A stretch of DNA of 64,000 nt from Proales similis (lineage: Eukaryota > Rotifera > Eurotatoria > Ploima > Proalidae), in the NCBI GenBank assembly GCA_019059635.1, contig JAGVRJ010000005.1, positions 1,488,001 through 1,552,000 of the forward strand. Direction: 5' to 3'. Within the stretch, counting starts at the first letter, position 1, and every line of letters starts with the position of its first letter. A model generated the notes under the pieces. It had not been told where the DNA came from. It saw only the letters and a program-made list of their open reading frames with translations, and searched no databases. The position numbers and the translations under genes are program-made. Shown here piece by piece: positions 20,316 to 59,831 of the stretch.

Positions 20316-23117
20316 ATGTTCTCGACTACAAGCTCAAGCTATCTAAGCCAGAGCGATTCAATATACAGTCGACCGAATAGAAAAGAGCGCAGCAGACGTA
20401 ATGAGCAGCGCGATTCAAAACGGCGCCAGGCTACTGACAGACGCCGAGTTCACCAGCGACCTAGAAAATACCAAACTAGCGAAGTATCCTCGTCGAACAG
20501 TGCAACTATTTCTGAGCTTGAGAGTCTCAGCAGCAGTTCGCTAGCTGACTCTCGTGCTCTACGCCGTCGACTCATCAAATGTGTTCTTAAAGAAGACACT
20601 GACTCCATGGTGAGCCAATCTCTTCGTCATTCATTTTCAAATTTAATTGTCATTTAATCTCGCCGAACCAGAAAAAGCTTCTGTGCCATACTGACGTGCG
20701 AACTATTCGAGACCGGCATGAAAATACTTTACTTCACATTGCGTGTGGCTTTGGCCGATTGAAGTCGATACAAGCACTGATGAAACTGTGCCCCGAGCTG
20801 GACCATTGCACGGATGACAAAGGACACAACCCGACAGATGTCGCCATCAAGGTAGCCTTCACTTAAGAGGCTCACTTACATGAATGACTACTAAATAGAA
20901 ACATTCAAAATAGCATGGCCAACTGGCGGCTTTTAAATGGATGGCTAGCCACACCGATCTATTGGAGCGAGAAATTTTGAAAAATTCAACGCCATCCAGG
21001 CGTACTTGCCTTCATCTTGCGGCCAAACACGGAGAGAATGAAATATTGCGCTTTATTCTGGCAGAAATGTTCAAAAGACAATACTCGATTGACTCGCAGG
21101 ACGTGAGCGGAAATACCGCCGTTCACTTGGCCGCTAAATACAATCATCTTGATTGTGTGCAAGTAAGAGAGCCCATTTTTCGAAACCCCTTCCTTTGGTC
21201 CCTAAGTTATTTACGATCGACTTATGAAGAGTTTAGTCGAGTTCAACTGCGACGTGACACTCACAAACAAAAGTGGCTACACCGCCTGTATGGTCGCTGA
21301 ATACTTTGGCCATTCAGAATGTGTTCATTATCTCATGATTGTGGAGACTTGCATCAACTTGTCAATCAAGTTGGTGAAAATTGGACGACGCCTTCGCGAA
21401 ACGAAAACCAACAACGAGATTTTAAAAATCCAGATGGACGAGGTAAGTGAACACAACGTGAGCGATTCGCACGAGTCAATTTTTGTTGAAATTTTCCCTT
21501 CCGCTCAGGCAATCGCAATAAACAACGACTTCATAAATCAACGAGAGAATGCAATGAACATAAGTCTAAGTCTAATGCAGAAACAAATCGACGAGCTTGA
21601 AGGCGGCATGCTAGCCGAAGTAAGACGGGCACACGAGGAAAATGCAAAATTGAGAAATGAGCTCCACGAGCTCAAAGCGAGCAGATCCATTCAGAATTCT
21701 TCTTTAACAATCAGTGCACAAGAACAGGCCAGATACGCTCAAATCGAGTCAGATCTCAGTCGTTGTAAACAAGAGATACACAACACAAATAAGAACTGTG
21801 CCAAGCTCATGCAGATGGATCACCAGCGTTTGAGCCTGGTCAAAAGCCGGCTGAATGAAATAAAAACAAATTTAGAAAATGACAGTCAAAGCAGCATTTC
21901 TGCGTCGGAATCGGGCGAGCTAGTCGACTCCAAAGAGCACTTGGAACTTTTAAGGTTTGTTTTAAACGCCTGCATTTGACTGTTTGCGAAAAGTAAAAGC
22001 CTTTTTGAGCAGAAAAATGTATCAGGAGACCACACACAAGTTGATGATATTCAGAAACGCGTTGAAAAACCGGTCGGCAAATAGCTCGAGACTTGACCTG
22101 TTCAAAATGTCCACAACCGATAATTCCTCGCAAAACTCAATCTCGTCGGGCTGTTCCTCGCCTTCAGTCAATATAGCGAATTTCTATTCGAATCTAAATC
22201 GTGACAATTGCATTCAGCAGTTGAGCAGTCCGTCTGTAACATGCTCGTCGGCCTCTATTTCATCGTCGTCCAATTCAGGTGATCGCCGAGAGCAGATTCG
22301 TAGAATGAGCGACTTGGACGAAGTGACTGAGGAAGACTACAGTAGCAATGTGAGCGACGAGAGAGCCGGCCATCTGGACTATTTAGCCTCTTTACCACCC
22401 AGACCGCAAACCGCTGTTGGAATGCGACCGACTAAAGCTAAAAGTCCACACGCGAAGCTAAACGAGATAATATCGAGTCAGAGCGATGAGTTTGCAGGTG
22501 GTGACTATGAGTACAGCGACAATGAATCGCTCAGCGACGGTGACTACCAGCTGTTGGACGAAGATGATGAAGAACAAGTGGAAGATGTTGACGATTTACC
22601 CGTTCATGATTTGAACAGCTCGCCCTCAAGTGGATCAGATCAGGCAGTCAATGAAGAAGGAAATGCCAGCGACGATCAGTCCGATCACACCGTAATCGCC
22701 AATCCGAATGAGTAAGTGGTCGTCTATTTCTAAACCTAAACACTTTGCTCTTGATGATTGATCGCCAAATCCACTAGTGAGAACGATTACGAGTCAAACA
22801 TGTCCTACGGATACGAAAACCATCGGAGCAGTAGTCAAATAACACGACAGGGCTTGAACGGCCAAACGATTGTGGAAGAAATAAATCACAACTACGAGCG
22901 ACATTACAACCGATCTACCTCGCGCCATCGCTCCAGCTCTATACCTCGTAGACTAGAAATTGTGAACGAGCCGCAAGAAGGGCGACGCGCTCAAAAAGGC
23001 TCACGTGCACAAAGGGACGATTTATATTCACTGCAAAATGCCAACAATTTCATTCTAATCAATGATGAAGACGAAGAATTTAATGTCGACTGTCTTGGCT
23101 CCGTCCCGGCTTATTAG
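20316..23117 (+). CDS. Ankyrin-repeat, coiled-coil protein with acidic tail
   Basis: Unnamed protein of 806 residues. Exons: 20316-20609, 20672-20851, 20914-21162, 21230-21442, 21509-21954, 22013-22711, 22778-23117. Residues 1-98 are Ser/Arg-rich and disordered. Residues about 100-245 hold around four ankyrin repeats (NTLLHIACGFGRLKSIQALM, TCLHLAAKHGENEILRFIL, NTAVHLAAKYNHLDCVQSLV, GYTACMVAEYFGHSECVHYL). Residues about 250-390 form a coiled coil. The remainder is Ser-rich with acidic clusters (DEDDEEQVEDVDD) and a basic Arg/Ser patch near the C-terminus. Ankyrin plus coiled coil suggests a cytoskeletal or centrosomal scaffold, which is inference. The first ATG with suitable context (CGAAATG) was taken as start. 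Its 3' end faces the CCDC170-like gene A across only 168 bp. Confidence 0.75.
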
Positions 23118-23285: not shown

Positions 23286-26200
23286 TCACTTTTTGTAGTT
23301 CGACAAGTCAGTGGCGGCGGCAGGTAAGAGATGAGAACACTGTCCACCAGGCATGAGGTAGAAGCTGGAAGCCAAGGCCGGAACGCCGTGGTTCATAAAC
23401 TGTTCGATTTGAGTGAATATTTGACAATCGCTAAGACTCACTGTGCACAAGTCGATGCCGAACTTTTTCGCGATCGTATACCGAAAGTCAAGAAGCTTAG
23501 TTAGGCGAGGCAATTGAGACAGAAGCTTGAGCGGATTCGAGATTGAAATTTGCTTACTTGGCGTTCTCTGACCTGGGTCTTTTCAAGCTCACATCTTGTC
23601 GAACGAAGTTCGTTGCTCAGCTCGGTAATCGACTTTTCTGACGAACAAGTCAAACGAGAGAGCTCATCTTCCAGAAAATCGACCTTCTCTCGTAAGCTGG
23701 CTATTTTCACCATGCACTTGTCGTTTTCGGCTTGCAGTTCACCAATTATTGCATTAAGTTCAACAAGCTTTTGTTCACGATCGGTGAGTTTTGTCTGAAA
23801 AGATTTTAGTCATCGGCAGAACGTTGAATTGATTTGTTTTGCTCAATTATGAATGAAGTTTTGCAGTAGTTACCTTTAGCTCACCACTGTCAAGGCGGTT
23901 GGCTTTTAATTCGACGTTTTCTTCTTTAAGCGATTTCAACTGAGCTCGTAGCCTGTCGATTTTTATGCAGAGTTTTTTGTTGAGTGCAAACTGGTTGTCA
24001 CTTTGCTTTTGCGAATCGCTGCAGTTGAACAGTCGCTCCTCCAGTTCGGTAATTTTCTTCCTTAGCAAGTTCAGGTGAAGGTCTTTGTTCGATAGCTGTT
24101 CGTTAACAAGTTTGGTCTTTTCCTCCAGCTCTTCAACTCGACTCTTGGTTCTTTTCTCTCGATTTAGACATTCGCCTTGATAGGCTGCTTCGATGCGGTT
24201 GTAGATCGAACTCAAATCATCGAATTCGGAAATTTCAAACAGCGCTCCCAGACGACGATAGAACTCAGCCGTCTAAGCGAAAATTCGCAGCTTACAATCA
24301 CATGTTTCGGAGTAGATTTGACCTTGAAAACCTACTCTTAATCGTTCCATGTGAACTTCTTCGCTTTGAATTGTCATGGTTGAATGCAACGAGTTCAATT
24401 CCGTTTTTAAATTTTCCGTTCTGCTCTCCAGCTCGAGCATGCGTTCATCATCGTTTTGTTTTTGGCGAATTTTCATCTCCAGCTCTTGATTCAATGCGAC
24501 CAGTCTCTCGTCCATCGAAGCTAACATCTGATTTAAGCCTGAGTTGAAATGATAAATAACGAACGAGCTAAGCTATTCAAAATTACCAGTCCTCGTTCTT
24601 TGCTTGATTTTACCAATAGCTTCAAGTTTTCCACAATATTCTCTTCTCGAGCAAACACGTGCACATAATCGTCTGTGAGCAGTTCGGACAGTGTTTTAAG
24701 GAATTTCTTTCGTTTCTCCCTATGCTCTGTCAGTGCTGCATTCGCTGCCTCCAACTTGCCGGTAGTTTCATTCAGTTTGCCATGGTTAACTTCAAGCTGA
24801 GTTTTCATTTCGAGAATCTCCTGATAAAATCGACTATTTTTTTCGCGAATGGCGTCAAGCTCTTCGCAAAGCACATTTTGGCCAGCATTTGATCCCTCAA
24901 GTTGCTAGGAAAGAGACAGCATTACAAATTGATACCCGAACTGGTGTATATTCGCCACTTGGCTTACTCCTTTGAGCAGACTGCATTCATGCTGCAGACC
25001 AGCGATCTGCTTGTCTCTGTCGTTGAGCTCAGTAATCAACCGATCGACTTTGCTCTTTTCCACAAGCTTCTCATTCTCTGCCTCGGCCAGTTGCTTCGAA
25101 ACGCTTTGTAAGCTTTCTTTCAGCAGCATGCATTCGAATTTGATCTGCTCAAGCTTCGATGAAAACTAAGTCAGACCGTTTGAACAAATCACAACAATTT
25201 GCCAATCAAGCCAACCTTTTCAAGTTCTTTTTCCGAATCTGACTCGACAAATTCACATTCCCAATCTATTTCCCAGCCGAAAACGTCCACAAATATCCGC
25301 GTAAGCTTGATAAATCTTTCCCTCAGAACAGTAACTGTCTTGGTGTTTTCATCTTGCTCTGCCGAACTGAGACTGTTTTAAGCATTCAATTGAAAATTTC
25401 CATCCCGTCTCGAGTCAAACTTACCTCTTTTCTTCATCGACTTTCAATTTCGACTCGAGTTCAGTGACATTAGTCTCCAGCGATTGAATTTTAATGTTCG
25501 CTTGCTCAATTTTAGATAGGCAATTTTGCGCACTCGTGTTTGACTCTTCAAGATCAGCCAGGAGCTGTCCGTTTTTTGCTGTCAATCGATTATTTTCAGA
25601 TTGAAGCTCGTCGATTTGTCGGTTAAGTTTATCGATTTTCAGCGCGTTTCCTTTGTTTTGTTCCTTTTCTTCGCTTAGCTTAAACAAACAAGCAAAACTG
25701 AAGGGAGAAAATCGAACAAAAGTCAATTTCGCTTTACCTCAGCCTCGAGCGACTCGCATTTTGCTCTAATTGATGCTAATTGCTTTTTTGTACTCTCGGC
25801 TTGTATCCGTTCTCTACTACTCCACACCTCATCCTTTAACAAGCCAAAATAGTCAATTTATCGTCTCGTTTGCTATTGCGGAGTATTCAGTTTACCTTTG
25901 TCAGCTCTTCATATCGCCTGGACGACTGCTGGTGCTCTCTGCAAGACGATAATGCCATTTTAGAGCATTTTAAAGAAATTTAAAAATAAAACGAAAGTAA
26001 ATTACGAATAACGATTCAACTCAACAATTTGCTTATCACGTTTTTCAATCTGCTGCCTCAGAGCTTTGTTCTCCTCGGTGAGCTTGAATTCGTCTCGTTC
26101 AGGATTGACCAAATGAAAAGAAAGAGACGAGAAATGTTTTACATCGATGAGAATTCGTCGAGCTTCAAGTTCGTTTGGGCGATTGTAGGCACTGGCAGAC

Positions 26201-26829
26201 CCAAAAATAAATGAATTTGACCGGACATCGATTAGTTGCGAGCGACTCGACGTTTTCTCGTTAAAAGCAGACGCAATCAAGGGCAGATAGGGTGTTCTTT
26301 CCGGCTCTCTCTGACTGATCCGACTCGACGAGGCATGTCCGACGTGAAATACTTGTTTGACGAGTCTTTTGATCACTTGGGCGACCTGTTCGCTTTCGCT
26401 CAAACGCATTGATGAGCATAAAAACCCTTTTGCTTCGCAAATAGCGGCCAAGATTGCTTCTTCTGCTCGACCAGTCTGACCCTCTTGCCGGTTGGCCAGC
26501 AACAGGGCTGGAGTAAAGCCAATCTCTGCCAAGTTTATGAACTTTTTCAGGCTATCAGCCGAAGACTCCACTGATTCATTGTGTACGCAGACTATTGCCA
26601 CGCCTTCGCGGCTACAGTTCCGAATCAAGAAACTTGCTTGCTCGATGTCGTTAAGCTCACAAAATTGACATGAAACTGTCCTATCATCGACTTCAAGCTG
26701 GCATGTAAAATGCTCGACCGCGGAATCCTCACCAGTTGACTCGGATTTTTGCCCAGTGAGCATCGATATCAAAGTCGACTTGCCCACACCTGATACACCG
26801 ACCACATAAACTTTAACTTCGCTCGCCAT
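23286..26829 (-). CDS. CCDC170-like coiled-coil protein A with N-terminal GTPase-like domain
   Basis: About 975 residues. Exons (minus): 26829-26006, 25938-25896, 25833-25738, 25678-25425, 25372-25216, 25165-24968, 24904-24587, 24527-24336, 24272-23874, 23794-23558, 23495-23286. Residues 1-175 are a Ras-like P-loop fold: YVVGVSGVGKST is the P-loop, then AIVCVHNES and LLLANRQEG, where the NKxD base-binding motif is degenerate (NRQE). After a short linker the rest is nearly continuous coiled coil, ending in a C-terminal globular segment LLDFRYTIAKKFGID. That segment, and motifs such as LHLNLLRKK and ELEKTQVRERQ, recur in the neighbouring gene B (27416-30361). CCDC170 binds microtubules and is found at Golgi or ciliary doublets; the assignment is by eye. 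The first in-frame ATG was chosen; the upstream TTG was ignored. Donor GTTGGC at 25215 is unusual. Confidence 0.75.
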
Positions 26830-27415
26830 GCTGAATGTGATCTGCAAGAGAAAAGATGTGAAATTACATAAAATTGAATTTTTGTTATTAGCCGTCGTGG
26901 GCAGAGTATTTTCACTTCAAAGCGCTTCGCATAATCGGACACAATCCGAGAGTCATATGCTCCAACCTACTTTTCTGCAAGTCGGTGTTGTTTGGCTATG
27001 GACAGATAGGCAATGAAAATAGCAACGATTAACCAAAATAACTTATAATAATTGCCTGGCAATAGAGTTTGGTTGACAACCGGACTGAAAGCTTCTGGGG
27101 GACCCACTGGGACCCGTCTCTGGGACCCATTCATAATATTTTGTATCCATGACTACAAGCAAACACCCTTTCGGGTCTTGGCCACACGAACGCATTTAAT
27201 CAAAACGTAATAAGTCGGCAACCGAAAATTATTTTCGCCTCGTAGAGAATCGGTTGCCGCCGACTAGCCTGGGCAAACATTGAGGCTAGTCAGTCTAGCC
27301 GCGTTCAAAGCCGTTCGTTCTAACGGTCAGGAGCCAACACCCAAACAATAAATTTCTTCTGGACTTTTAGATTAGTACGTGGTCAATCTTCGAGTACAGG
27401 AAAGCACAGTTCTAA
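26830..27415. promoter_or_regulatory. Bidirectional promoter region of the CCDC170-like pair
   Basis: 586 bp separate the start codons of two head-to-head paralogues, so both promoters must lie here. A short run of GGGACCC units occurs near 27097-27131. No further motif was recognised. Shared regulation of the two genes is an inference from arrangement. Confidence 0.5.
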
Positions 27416-30361
27416 ATGTCAAGCTACATTGTGGACCGTGACCAACTGCTCAATTCGCTGAGCAACTCTGCCCGAGCCATTCAAACGACGGCTTGGATCG
27501 ATGTAAACTCAAACACCGGTCTGGTCGGCTCATACAACCGTTCGTGTGATTCCGAGCTACGAAAACAGTTGGCTGAGGTGATTTTTTACTTGCTAACTGT
27601 ATGGAGATAATTTTTCTAATCAAATCGACTTTGTTTGACTCATTTTAAGCTTAAAGATCAAGTGAATCTACTTAAAACAGATGTTGATAAAAAAGACAAG
27701 CTAATCTGTGAGCTGTCGAGCGTACGGTATGTAAAATACTTGAGTCCGTGTGGCACTTTTGCTCATCGCAGTCTAAAACAGGGACACAGAGAAAGTTCGC
27801 TTTGTTGAAACTACACGAGTAAGTCTGATGCCATCAAAACGAGAGCTTCCAATAAGCGAATGAATTAAAAAAAATCAAGTATGAAAATGTCTACGGCATG
27901 GAGCGAACGCACGTGGAAAACATGAGACGCGAGTTGACCACAATGACGACCAAGTACGAAAGCGTGAGCTCGGAGGTAAGCCAAGTTGTGGCATGCATGA
28001 AATTGTTAATCGCTAATGCAATCTGGTTTCGAAGCTGTGCGAATACAAAGCCAAAGTTCAGGCAAAAGAAGAGAGAATAAATGAGCTGCGTCGAGAGATT
28101 GAGACAATGCGCAGCGAGAATGAGACCATGAATTCAATGATTGTGACCCTGCGCGGTAAACTGCGTGAAGTGGAAGGAAATCTCGGCGGATTCGAGACTG
28201 TGGCCAGTAAATCGGAAATCACCATCACCACTTTGCAAAAAGACAATCGTGAGCTCCAGCAGCTCATACTTGAGCTTGAATCGCGTATTCGAACACACAT
28301 GAACGAGCGAGAGGAAGCCGAGAGACGAGTGAGCTCTGTGCTCGTTAAAATCAACGAGCTTGCCACCAAGATAACCACAATCACGGGCGAAGATATTGAA
28401 TATGGAATCGGTGGCCTTGAGAAGATAATCGAAAAGATCACTGCCATTACGGAGGAGAACACGACTTTGAAAGGAAAGTTAGTGACCGCCACTGACAGTC
28501 TGGGTGCCAATGAAGCTGAGAATAAAGCGAATCGCGAGACCATTCAACGCCTTGTAAACGAAATAAACAAATTCGAAAAAGACGTCACAAACAATCGACT
28601 GGCGATGGACACTCTTCGAGCGGTAAGAGATAATCAATCGAAATTGAGAGTAATTAAAAGAGAAATATTGGCGTTTAGGAACGAGATGCGGCGCTCAATT
28701 CCCATTCGACTGCCGAGAAAGAGATCGAAGTGCTGAAAGAACGCATCACCTCAATTCAGACCGCATGGCAATCGTGCAAGGCTGAGCTTGAAGGCAGAGA
28801 GAATCAGTTCAACTTGAACATTCTCAACCTGAAACAGCACGAAAACGACGCTCTGTTTTACAAGAGCTGCTTGGACTCGTTCAAGGAGCAGATCGCCACA
28901 CTACTAAGCGACGGATTTGTCAAAGTGGACCCGAACGAGGATCAGATTAAAGAGAAACTGAAGCATTTGATGACCTCGAGCAAAGACCGTGGACTTGTAA
29001 TTTCTTTTTTATTTCCAATTCAGCCCGGCCTACAGCTTCTGAGATTTTTTTCATTGCAACTAGATCATTACCAACATGGAAGGTAAAGTAAAACAGTTGG
29101 CCGATCAGCTAGCCGAGCAAATCGAATTGTACAAAACAATGGAGGAAAAGTACAGACGAAGTGAATCGCACATATTTGAACTAGAGAGCCGAATAAAAAG
29201 CTTGGACAGTGAATACTGTGCAACCGAAGCCCTGAGAGACAACTTGAGATGTGACCGAGTCAAAGTGAGTATTCGCTGTCCACAAACACTTGGCACCATC
29301 CAATTTAAAACCTTTCTTTTGCCTTGAAGTATTTGACGTTCTTGGAGAAAGTGGGCAACATTTTGAAACTGGAGGAGATATCGGCCGATGTGGGACTCGA
29401 CATGAACGTTGATCTCATCCTTAGTCGAATTGAGCAGCTCGCTCGAATGGAAAATGATAGCCTGCATGACAAGCAGACAAGCATTTATAGCTTGCAGAGA
29501 AAAGTCAAGTCTCTAAAAGAGCAGCTGGATAACAAAGAGCTGCATTTGGATTTGCTGCGGAAAAAAGTCTCGTCGCTGGAAGAAGAGCGCTCGACTAAAA
29601 AATCGCTCGAGAAAGAAATCGACGAGCATATTTCAGTGAGCAAGAAATTCAAAGTCAGAGTTGAAAAGCTCACCGAACAACTCAACAGCCTCAAGTGCGA
29701 GAACAGCAAGCTGAAGGCCGATCTTTCCGATCTGCACTGCGTAAAGGGACACAGCAGCGATCAAGAGAAAGAGATGTGTCGTCTGAGATGTCGAATTGAA
29801 GAGCTCGAAACAGTCAAAGAGAAGCAAGCGGTGAAGATCGCTCGTCTGAGTGAAGAGCTTCATTTACTAAAGAGTGAACACCATGAAGACAGACATTCAA
29901 GTGAGAGCACTGTACATGAGCTAAGCGAAGAGCTGCGCTCGTTGAGACGCGAGCTGGAGAAAACTCAGGAAAGAGAACGTCAGCTTCTCGACTTCCGCTG
30001 TGTGATTGCGCGCATGCTCGGACTAGACGCCACAGGACTTGCTGTTGCCGACTATGAGCTCATCTCAAGAATCGAAAGAATCATAACATCTTACAACGGT
30101 GGCATTCTACCAGTTCACATTCAGCCAATCGCGGGCACTACATGCACGCCCGTATCCTACAACCAGGTCTACGAGTTCTCCTCAGGCAACTCGTCGTCGG
30201 CCAACGAGTATATTCGCTCGTCAAGCGCTACAAGACACACTTCTCATCGCACCCGAAGTCCCAGTCCGCGTAGACACCTTCATCATCACCATGTGGAAAC
30301 TTCGACCGTGGTCAGATCCAAGTCACCACGCAAAGTTAGAATCGATCCCAATTCATACTGA
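27416..30361 (+). CDS. CCDC170-like coiled-coil protein B
   Basis: About 836 residues, almost wholly coiled coil. Exons: 27416-27577, 27650-27726, 27782-27818, 27880-27975, 28035-28622, 28679-28996, 29064-29264, 29330-30361. The N-terminus lacks the GTPase-like domain of gene A. The C-terminal part contains LHLDLLRKK, ELEKTQERERQLLDFRCVI and ARMLGLDATGLAVADYELIS, the segment typical of CCDC170, then a Ser/His/Arg-rich tail ending SPRKVRIDPNSY. The 318-nt exon ending in SSKDRGL has an exact-length counterpart in gene A (318 nt, ending SSKERGL), so the two are duplicates. Gene B joins three of A's C-terminal exons into one. Likely role is a microtubule- or cilium-associated scaffold, inferred from the family. 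Confidence 0.78.
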
Positions 30362-56519: not shown

Positions 56520-57311
56520 TCAAAATGTAGAGGAAAATAAATCGAAAAAGCTTTTAGTTTGAAGATTGCGCCGCTTCGAGTTTGTAATATTGAACATCAA
56601 ATGGCGGCAGTTGGTCTTTTCAAGTTCACAGTTGTAGTAGACGCCCGATGTGCTGCGCAGCGCCGGCAGAGGGATGCCGCTCTTGCAGCAAATTTTTAAT
56701 TCGTTGAGCTGCTTTTCGTCGAGTCCCAGGCCTCTAATTGCATGCTCTATATAGTTGAGGTAGTTTTGGACCAACTCGTAAGCTAGCTCCTCAAATAGAT
56801 GTTCTAGTTTGTTCGTGTCCGACATGTCCAACTCTTCAAATAGGATGAAGCCGTTTTTCTTGGCAAACTCTCTGGCTTTCTTGGCCGATACCGGTTGCTG
56901 TTTTTCGTTCGCTTTTAAGCCTTCTTTGCGACACCCGATCAGCACTTTGATTAAATCAGTTGCCCTAGACAGGCGTGGTTGGCACACACTTTCTATTTGG
57001 TCCAGCCATCCTTCGCAACTGGTGAAACTGTCCGGGCATTGTACGTCGTAAACAATCACAAAGGCTTGTACGTTACTAAAATAGCTTTTGGTAATAGGCA
57101 AGTACTTTCGATCGCCGGACGTGTCGAAGATTTGCAATTTAATCGAAAGTTCACTCGGAGCCAAGACAATCAATTTTTGCTTAAAGTCAACGCCGATCGT
57201 GCGATTGGCCTGAGCCGGTTTCTGGCCTAAAAGACTCGACTTTCCAACTCCACTGTCGCCAAGTAAAGTAACTTTAAAGTTAAAATCGCTGTAAACACAT
57301 TCGGATGTCAT
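56520..57311 (-). CDS. Divergent Rab-like small GTPase
   Basis: A 263-residue Rab/Ras-fold protein in one exon. The P-loop is intact (VTLLGDSGVGKSSLL). The effector stretch keeps TIGVDFKQK, but about ten residues of switch I are missing between KSSLL and TIGVDF. Switch II reads FDTSGDRKYLPITKSYF, with Asp in place of the catalytic Gln of DTAGQE. The base-recognition motif NKxD is replaced (LIGCRKEG). The last 70 residues after the GTPase fold (LGLDEKQLNELKICCKSGIP onward) are Cys-containing and not a normal Rab tail; no terminal prenylation motif is present (ends FSSTF). It may bind nucleotide weakly or not hydrolyse it. Relation to Rab40-like or other atypical Rabs is possible but not shown. 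Confidence 0.7.
   Translation of the reverse strand: MTSECVYSDFNFKVTLLGDSGVGKSSLLGQKPAQANRTIGVDFKQKLIVLAPSELSIKLQIFDTSGDRKYLPITKSYFSNVQAFVIVYDVQCPDSFTSCEGWLDQIESVCQPRLSRATDLIKVLIGCRKEGLKANEKQQPVSAKKAREFAKKNGFILFEELDMSDTNKLEHLFEELAYELVQNYLNYIEHAIRGLGLDEKQLNELKICCKSGIPLPALRSTSGVYYNCELEKTNCRHLMFNITNSKRRNLQTKSFFDLFSSTF

Positions 57312-59127: not shown

Positions 59128-59831
<704 letters not shown>

Follow-up and report, generated by a model that had tools for sequence, protein, structure and literature searches.

A predicted Ras-like head fused to a CCDC170 paralogue, beside an ordinary CCDC170 gene, in the rotifer Proales similis

CCDC170 (C6orf97) is met frequently in human breast-cancer and bone genetics, and the role of its coiled-coil rod is poorly known. 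Regarding its cell biology, binding to Golgi-associated microtubules is described in PMC8061906 and expression at sites with ciliated cells in PMC6163198, where it is also said that at that time no publication on CCDC170 function in motile cilia existed. Combinations of coiled coils or cytoskeletal proteins with Ras-like domains are known from the large Rab GTPases (PMC8303950) and from p190RhoGAP (PMC5593906). Here we describe a pair of genes, A and B, in a 64,000-nucleotide stretch of the Proales similis genome (contig JAGVRJ010000005.1, positions 1,488,001 to 1,552,000; called the window in the following, with positions counted from its first letter). Both genes encode CCDC170-type rods, and in gene A the rod appears to be fused in-frame to a Ras-superfamily-like head. 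The initial annotation of the window had placed the two genes head to head around a gap of 586 base pairs (bp), and this layout is borne out by the ATG codons of A at 26829 (minus strand) and of B at 27416 (plus strand). The main parts are:

26829-23286, minus strand: gene A, spliced model, 12 exons, 955 amino acids
26335..26829, minus strand: head of gene A, Ras-superfamily-like, residues 1-165 (Pfam, PDB sequence matches, AlphaFold2, fold searches and motifs)
23286..26082, minus strand: rod of gene A, exons 2-12 (spliced model and profile score of 308 bits)
26830..27415, no strand: gap between the two ATG codons, 586 bp
27416..30361, plus strand: gene B, predicted CCDC170 orthologue, spliced model, 8 exons, 836 amino acids
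30254..30361 (limits approximate), plus strand: C-terminal basic tail of gene B, RSKSPRK..DPNSY (comparison with rotifer and other invertebrate CCDC170)

The identity of gene B was established by searching with residues 380-760 of its protein, which retrieved at least 72 proteins at an expectation value (E) of 1e-3 or below (7995 candidates scored) with 31-68% identity. Many of these homologues are named CCDC170, and rotifers head the list, the best among the matches listed being a protein of Brachionus calyciflorus with 68% over the searched region. Judged from its predicted protein, B is a CCDC170 orthologue of the ordinary kind. Its basic tail has counterparts in part of the family: RxRSxSP occurs in the last 80 residues of 37/72 homologues, and 28/72 end in D[PA]xxY. 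The 35 records without RxRSxSP comprise 29 from jawed vertebrates and 6 others, two of which are truncated, so that the RxRSxSP..DPxxY tail cannot be taken as family-defining; the lamprey record P0038 carries RxRSxSP, unlike the 29 jawed-vertebrate ones. A PDB sequence search with B gave no CCDC170 structure among its 5 matches (E 0.16 to 0.9). No third CCDC170 copy was found in the rotifer's own genome (32,716,893 assembled bases, 15 contigs), where all 10 matches to B fall in A or B. As a side observation, the bird and lizard CCDC170-type proteins P0045, P0055, P0061, P0070 and P0071 are filed under 'damage-control phosphatase ARMT1' as isoforms of it; read-through transcription or misnaming of neighbouring genes may lie behind this.

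In the case of gene A, BLASTP aligned the protein with B at E 3e-64, 28% over 772 columns (B in an earlier model of 840 amino acids). Against a CCDC170 profile of 18 proteins, namely B and 17 of the 72 homologues, the A rod scored 308 bits and the head alone -1.9 bits. The highest score among 200 heptad-preserving shuffles of the rod was -14.1 bits with the same profile, and in a reversal control reversed homologues reached at most 26.6 bits, compared to 250 bits in the forward direction. Additionally, all 7 introns of B are matched by introns of A in column and phase, A having 4 extra ones. On account of the two controls and the coincident introns, chance likeness is excluded, and the idea that A and B are unrelated coiled coils was rejected. 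The placement of both rods in the CCDC170 family, proposed in the initial annotation, therefore holds. The motifs listed there as shared (LLDFR, LHL[ND]LLRKK, ELEKTQ[VE]RERQ and SSK[ED]RGL) are present in both proteins, and so is an exon of 318 nucleotides (nt) that ends at the same alignment column. Among 126 columns with strong conservation (17 or all 18 of the proteins agreeing), A retains 63, while the other 63 are changed or lost. The RxRSxSP..DPxxY tail is absent from A, a loss that the initial annotation does not mention; the protein ends in ..DLSNYKK, and the three frames just downstream hold no such stretch. Altogether, as far as its predicted protein tells, gene A is a divergent, fast-evolving CCDC170 paralogue.

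The N-terminal head of A is of a different kind. The Pfam family PF00071 matched it with 27.0 bits when residues 1-161 were searched and with 22.7 bits in the whole protein, the cut-off being 21.6, and the alignment spans 159/162 positions. The GTPase-like domain that had been noticed earlier at this end of A is thus recovered by an independent profile. PDB sequence matches of the head were Ras and Rab11, with E between 3e-4 and 5e-4. Two AlphaFold2 models, the second of them an alignment-free control made because Ras-family rows could have biased the first, both show the Ras order of strands and helices at a low predicted local distance difference test score (pLDDT 57 and 45.5). Foldseek searches with these low-confidence models gave Rab and Ras as best matches (6e-8 and 4e-7). 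Since members of the Ras, Rab, Rap and Rheb groups were nearly tied in Pfam, Foldseek and VIA-align, no subfamily was assigned. Taken together, these results point to a Ras-superfamily domain of predicted Ras topology, with models of low confidence for the fold itself. A second copy of the head was not found in the own genome, where the single match, of 5 candidates, was A itself.

At the motif level, the P-loop is intact (GVSGVGKST, residues 11-19, in agreement with the G1 pattern GxxxxGK[ST]). The G3 motif serves Mg binding and switch II, and G4 serves guanine recognition. In A, ELND (residues 58-61) replaces DxxG at G3 and NRQE (residues 113-116) replaces NKxD at G4, and the SAK motif is replaced by SSMRL (residues 139-143). 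The degenerate base-recognition motif NRQE had been pointed out before and is confirmed here; the loss of G3 comes in addition. Because two nucleotide-contacting motifs are broken, the head is better named Ras-like, and it is probably a pseudo-GTPase rather than a switch.

Head and rod are predicted to belong to one gene. The evidence for this lies in the first exon and in the intron that seems to follow it:

26143..26829, minus strand: exon 1 of gene A, holding in a single frame the head, the linker and the motif known from the N-termini of rotifer CCDC170 (IDVRSNSF..., residues 200-229)
26083..26142, minus strand: probable intron 1 of gene A, 60 nt, GT..AG, open in-frame

This exon is free of stops for 229 codons, which at this composition would occur by chance at about 1e-6, and the other five frames contain 7-13 stops. 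Moreover, there is no Met in A between residues 141 and 451, and therefore the rod has no start codon near its own N-terminus. The first exon as originally drawn read through 26142-26083. We consider this stretch a probable intron instead, giving 12 exons and 955 amino acids: its 60 nt lie within the length range of the remaining introns (50-79 nt), and once it is taken out, intron 1 of A coincides with intron 1 of B in both phase and alignment column. It is graded as probable only, because codon usage gives no support.

How far this architecture extends was followed in proteins and in the literature. Among the 72 CCDC170 homologues listed, none has a P-loop GxxxxGK[ST] and none has PF00071 in its precomputed domains, in line with the remark in the initial annotation that a head of this type was unfamiliar in the family. 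When the A head was searched against proteins of similar overall length, none of 3839 candidates reached E <= 0.01. The corresponding protein search with the A rod had no match among 7988 candidates scored and is uninformative, as known homologues would reach 2e-44; absence of the fusion from other rotifers can therefore not be deduced. In the literature searched, no paper contained both 'CCDC170' and 'GTPase domain', or both 'rotifer' and 'CCDC170'. A Ras-like head on a CCDC170 rod would thus be a domain combination unmet in the relatives retrieved, seen in one genome.

The explanation that we favour, and hold to be moderately likely, is that B is the rotifer CCDC170 and A a paralogue that gained a Ras-like head, lost the tail and serves as a non-cycling docking adaptor. 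An inverted local duplication of CCDC170 would have placed A beside B. A would then have acquired a Ras-superfamily domain upstream of the original N-terminus and dropped the C-terminal tail, and B would have retained tail and ancestral role. Since G3 and G4 are lost though the P-loop is kept, the head most likely takes no part in GTP/GDP cycling; its probable role is that of a fixed docking head for a coiled-coil rod that associates with microtubules and perhaps pairs with itself or B. A might in this way bring a partner to the microtubules served by CCDC170, be they Golgi-associated or ciliary. Rotifers are ciliated animals. Much more tentatively, the head of this new microtubule adaptor may read or recruit a Ras- or Rab-type partner, with or without nucleotide, while A and B, under one divergent upstream region, may form one complex. 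If so, a Ras-superfamily head would have been grafted onto a duplicated, tail-less CCDC170 rod at ciliary or Golgi microtubules.

Several points weigh against this explanation. Both structure models of the head are weak, as their pLDDT values show, and the alignment behind the first one contained real Ras-family rows as a possible source of bias. The perfect P-loop speaks against a complete loss of nucleotide binding. Codon bias in the head favours frame 0 by 0.12 bits per codon, compared to 0.36-0.43 in the rod; in the linker, frame 2 scores slightly above frame 0; and for the putative intron 1 the frame 0 score is positive. In the best trees A is not found next to B, which also fits an older duplication. 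Finally, the fusion of head and rod is known here from genomic sequence of a single genome.

The age of the duplication is where an alternative survives best. In a tree of 38 rows, A belongs to the rotifer clade (100/100), where its branch measures 2.81 and its neighbours are bdelloids, with support of just 89/39. In a reduced, author-chosen subset of 17 rows from the 72 homologues, the non-rotifer rows split off at 100/99, and the rotifers without A group at 62/51. The approximately unbiased (AU) test on this subset gave p-AU values of 0.099 for A with B, 0.163 for A with monogononts and 0.333 for A with bdelloids, so that a grouping of A with B is neither favoured nor rejected. A local duplication giving A and B is compatible with these trees, which do not demonstrate it. 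The inverted duplication proposed in the initial annotation agrees with the head-to-head arrangement, with the introns in common and with the lack of a third copy; the position of A apart from B in the trees lends it no support. A probably arose by inverted local duplication. It could also be that duplication and fusion are old, dating to an early monogonont or rotifer, and that A orthologues in other rotifers were missed; we regard this as possible but rather doubtful. The long branch of A apart from B in the best trees, the 4 introns of A without B counterpart and the uninformative rod search would all suit an old event. On the other hand, the head search was empty and no P-loop protein appeared among the 72 listed matches to B, though a very diverged orthologue would escape both, and inverted copies that lie next to each other tend to be young.

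Next comes the possibility that the head has kept its ability to bind guanine nucleotide, perhaps in a slow or constitutive manner, which would make A a nucleotide-gated CCDC170, similar to large Rabs with the domain order reversed. This would accord with the perfect G1 motif, with Glu in place of Asp in G4, with the nearly complete alignment to the Pfam Ras family and with the large Rabs themselves, which according to PMC8303950 hold a coiled coil and a Rab domain in one protein. Set against it are the changes from DxxG to ELND, from NKxD to NRQE and from SAK to SMR, and we consider nucleotide gating unlikely compared to a non-cycling head. That the head forms a gene of its own or a 5' exon used optionally, the fusion being an artefact of the open frame, is improbable: its position ahead of the rod might allow a splice site to bypass it, but one stop-free exon runs from the head through the linker into the conserved N-terminal motif of CCDC170, and the Met-free stretch leaves the rod without a start of its own. 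Still less probable is a decaying CCDC170 pseudogene, since the very long branch, the tail loss and the 63/126 strongly conserved columns changed or lost are opposed by a frame that stays open through 955 codons and across 11 GT-AG introns, by the 63 columns kept and by a family match of the head that is still significant.

The remaining exons of the two models complete the description of the locus, in which all 18 introns of A and B measure 50-79 nt and run from GT to AG:

26082-26006, 25938-25896, 25833-25738, 25678-25425, 25372-25216 and 25165-24968, minus strand: exons 2-7 of gene A
24904-24587 (318 nt), 24527-24336, 24272-23874, 23794-23558 and 23495-23286, minus strand: exons 8-12 of gene A
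27416-27577, 27650-27726, 27782-27818 and 27880-27975, plus strand: exons 1-4 of gene B
28035-28622, 28679-28996 (318 nt), 29064-29264 and 29330-30361, plus strand: exons 5-8 of gene B

Less than 200 bp separate the stop codon of A from the end of a convergent ankyrin-repeat gene (20914-23117, plus strand) with a coiled-coil, acidic C-terminal part. The window also contains further Ras-like sequences. At 56742-57281 (minus strand), 30 kb from gene A, there is an atypical Ras-family gene of one exon that matches PF00071 with 102 bits; its G4 is degenerate (GCRKEG) and its G3 reads DTSG. The degenerate G4, a trait in common with the head of A, made it an attractive candidate for the donor of that head, but it was rejected, being listed neither by BLASTP (E up to 10) nor by phmmer --max (E up to 1). 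Pieces of a canonical Ras-like GTPase with at least 2 exons were found at 59203-59731 (minus strand). Among 30 loci fetched out of 145 PF00071 matches, the best match to the head was a Rab-like open reading frame with 31.6 bits. One Rab-like match (L040:601-1142) is located on a contig filed as viral; stops interrupt its straight reading, as in an intron-bearing gene, and the contig may be eukaryotic DNA.

The pair A and B is of use because, of two paralogues lying side by side, one would show domain gain together with tail loss, and the other, of ancestral type, would serve as an internal control, in an animal whose assembly amounts to about 33 megabases. A natural CCDC170 variant with a head that can be assayed for nucleotide and partner binding would provide a handle on the function of the rod.

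Compared to animal CCDC170, A and B share homology along the full length of the rod, including the C-terminal LLDFR..LGLD segment, and both carry the N-terminal IDxxSN..G..Y motif of rotifer CCDC170. A differs by its Ras-like head, its strong divergence and the lack of the tail found in rotifer and other invertebrate members. With the large Rab GTPases (Rab44, Rab45/RASEF and Rab46/CRACR2A-L), as they are presented in PMC8303950, A has in common a coiled coil and a Ras-superfamily domain in one polypeptide. In those proteins, however, the GTPase is C-terminal and an EF-hand N-terminal, whereas the Ras-like domain of A is N-terminal with degraded G motifs, and the 9 Pfam families that were listed with A at E values up to 10 include no EF-hand. 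The pseudoGTPase domains of p190RhoGAP resemble the head, at the level of the general fold at which they were compared, in that a Ras-like fold, predicted in the case of A, has degraded nucleotide motifs and forms part of a larger cytoskeletal protein; as reported in PMC5593906 they are defective in nucleotide binding, whereas the head of A keeps a perfect P-loop. Unlike the large Rabs, A would thus add a probable pseudo-GTPase in head-first order.

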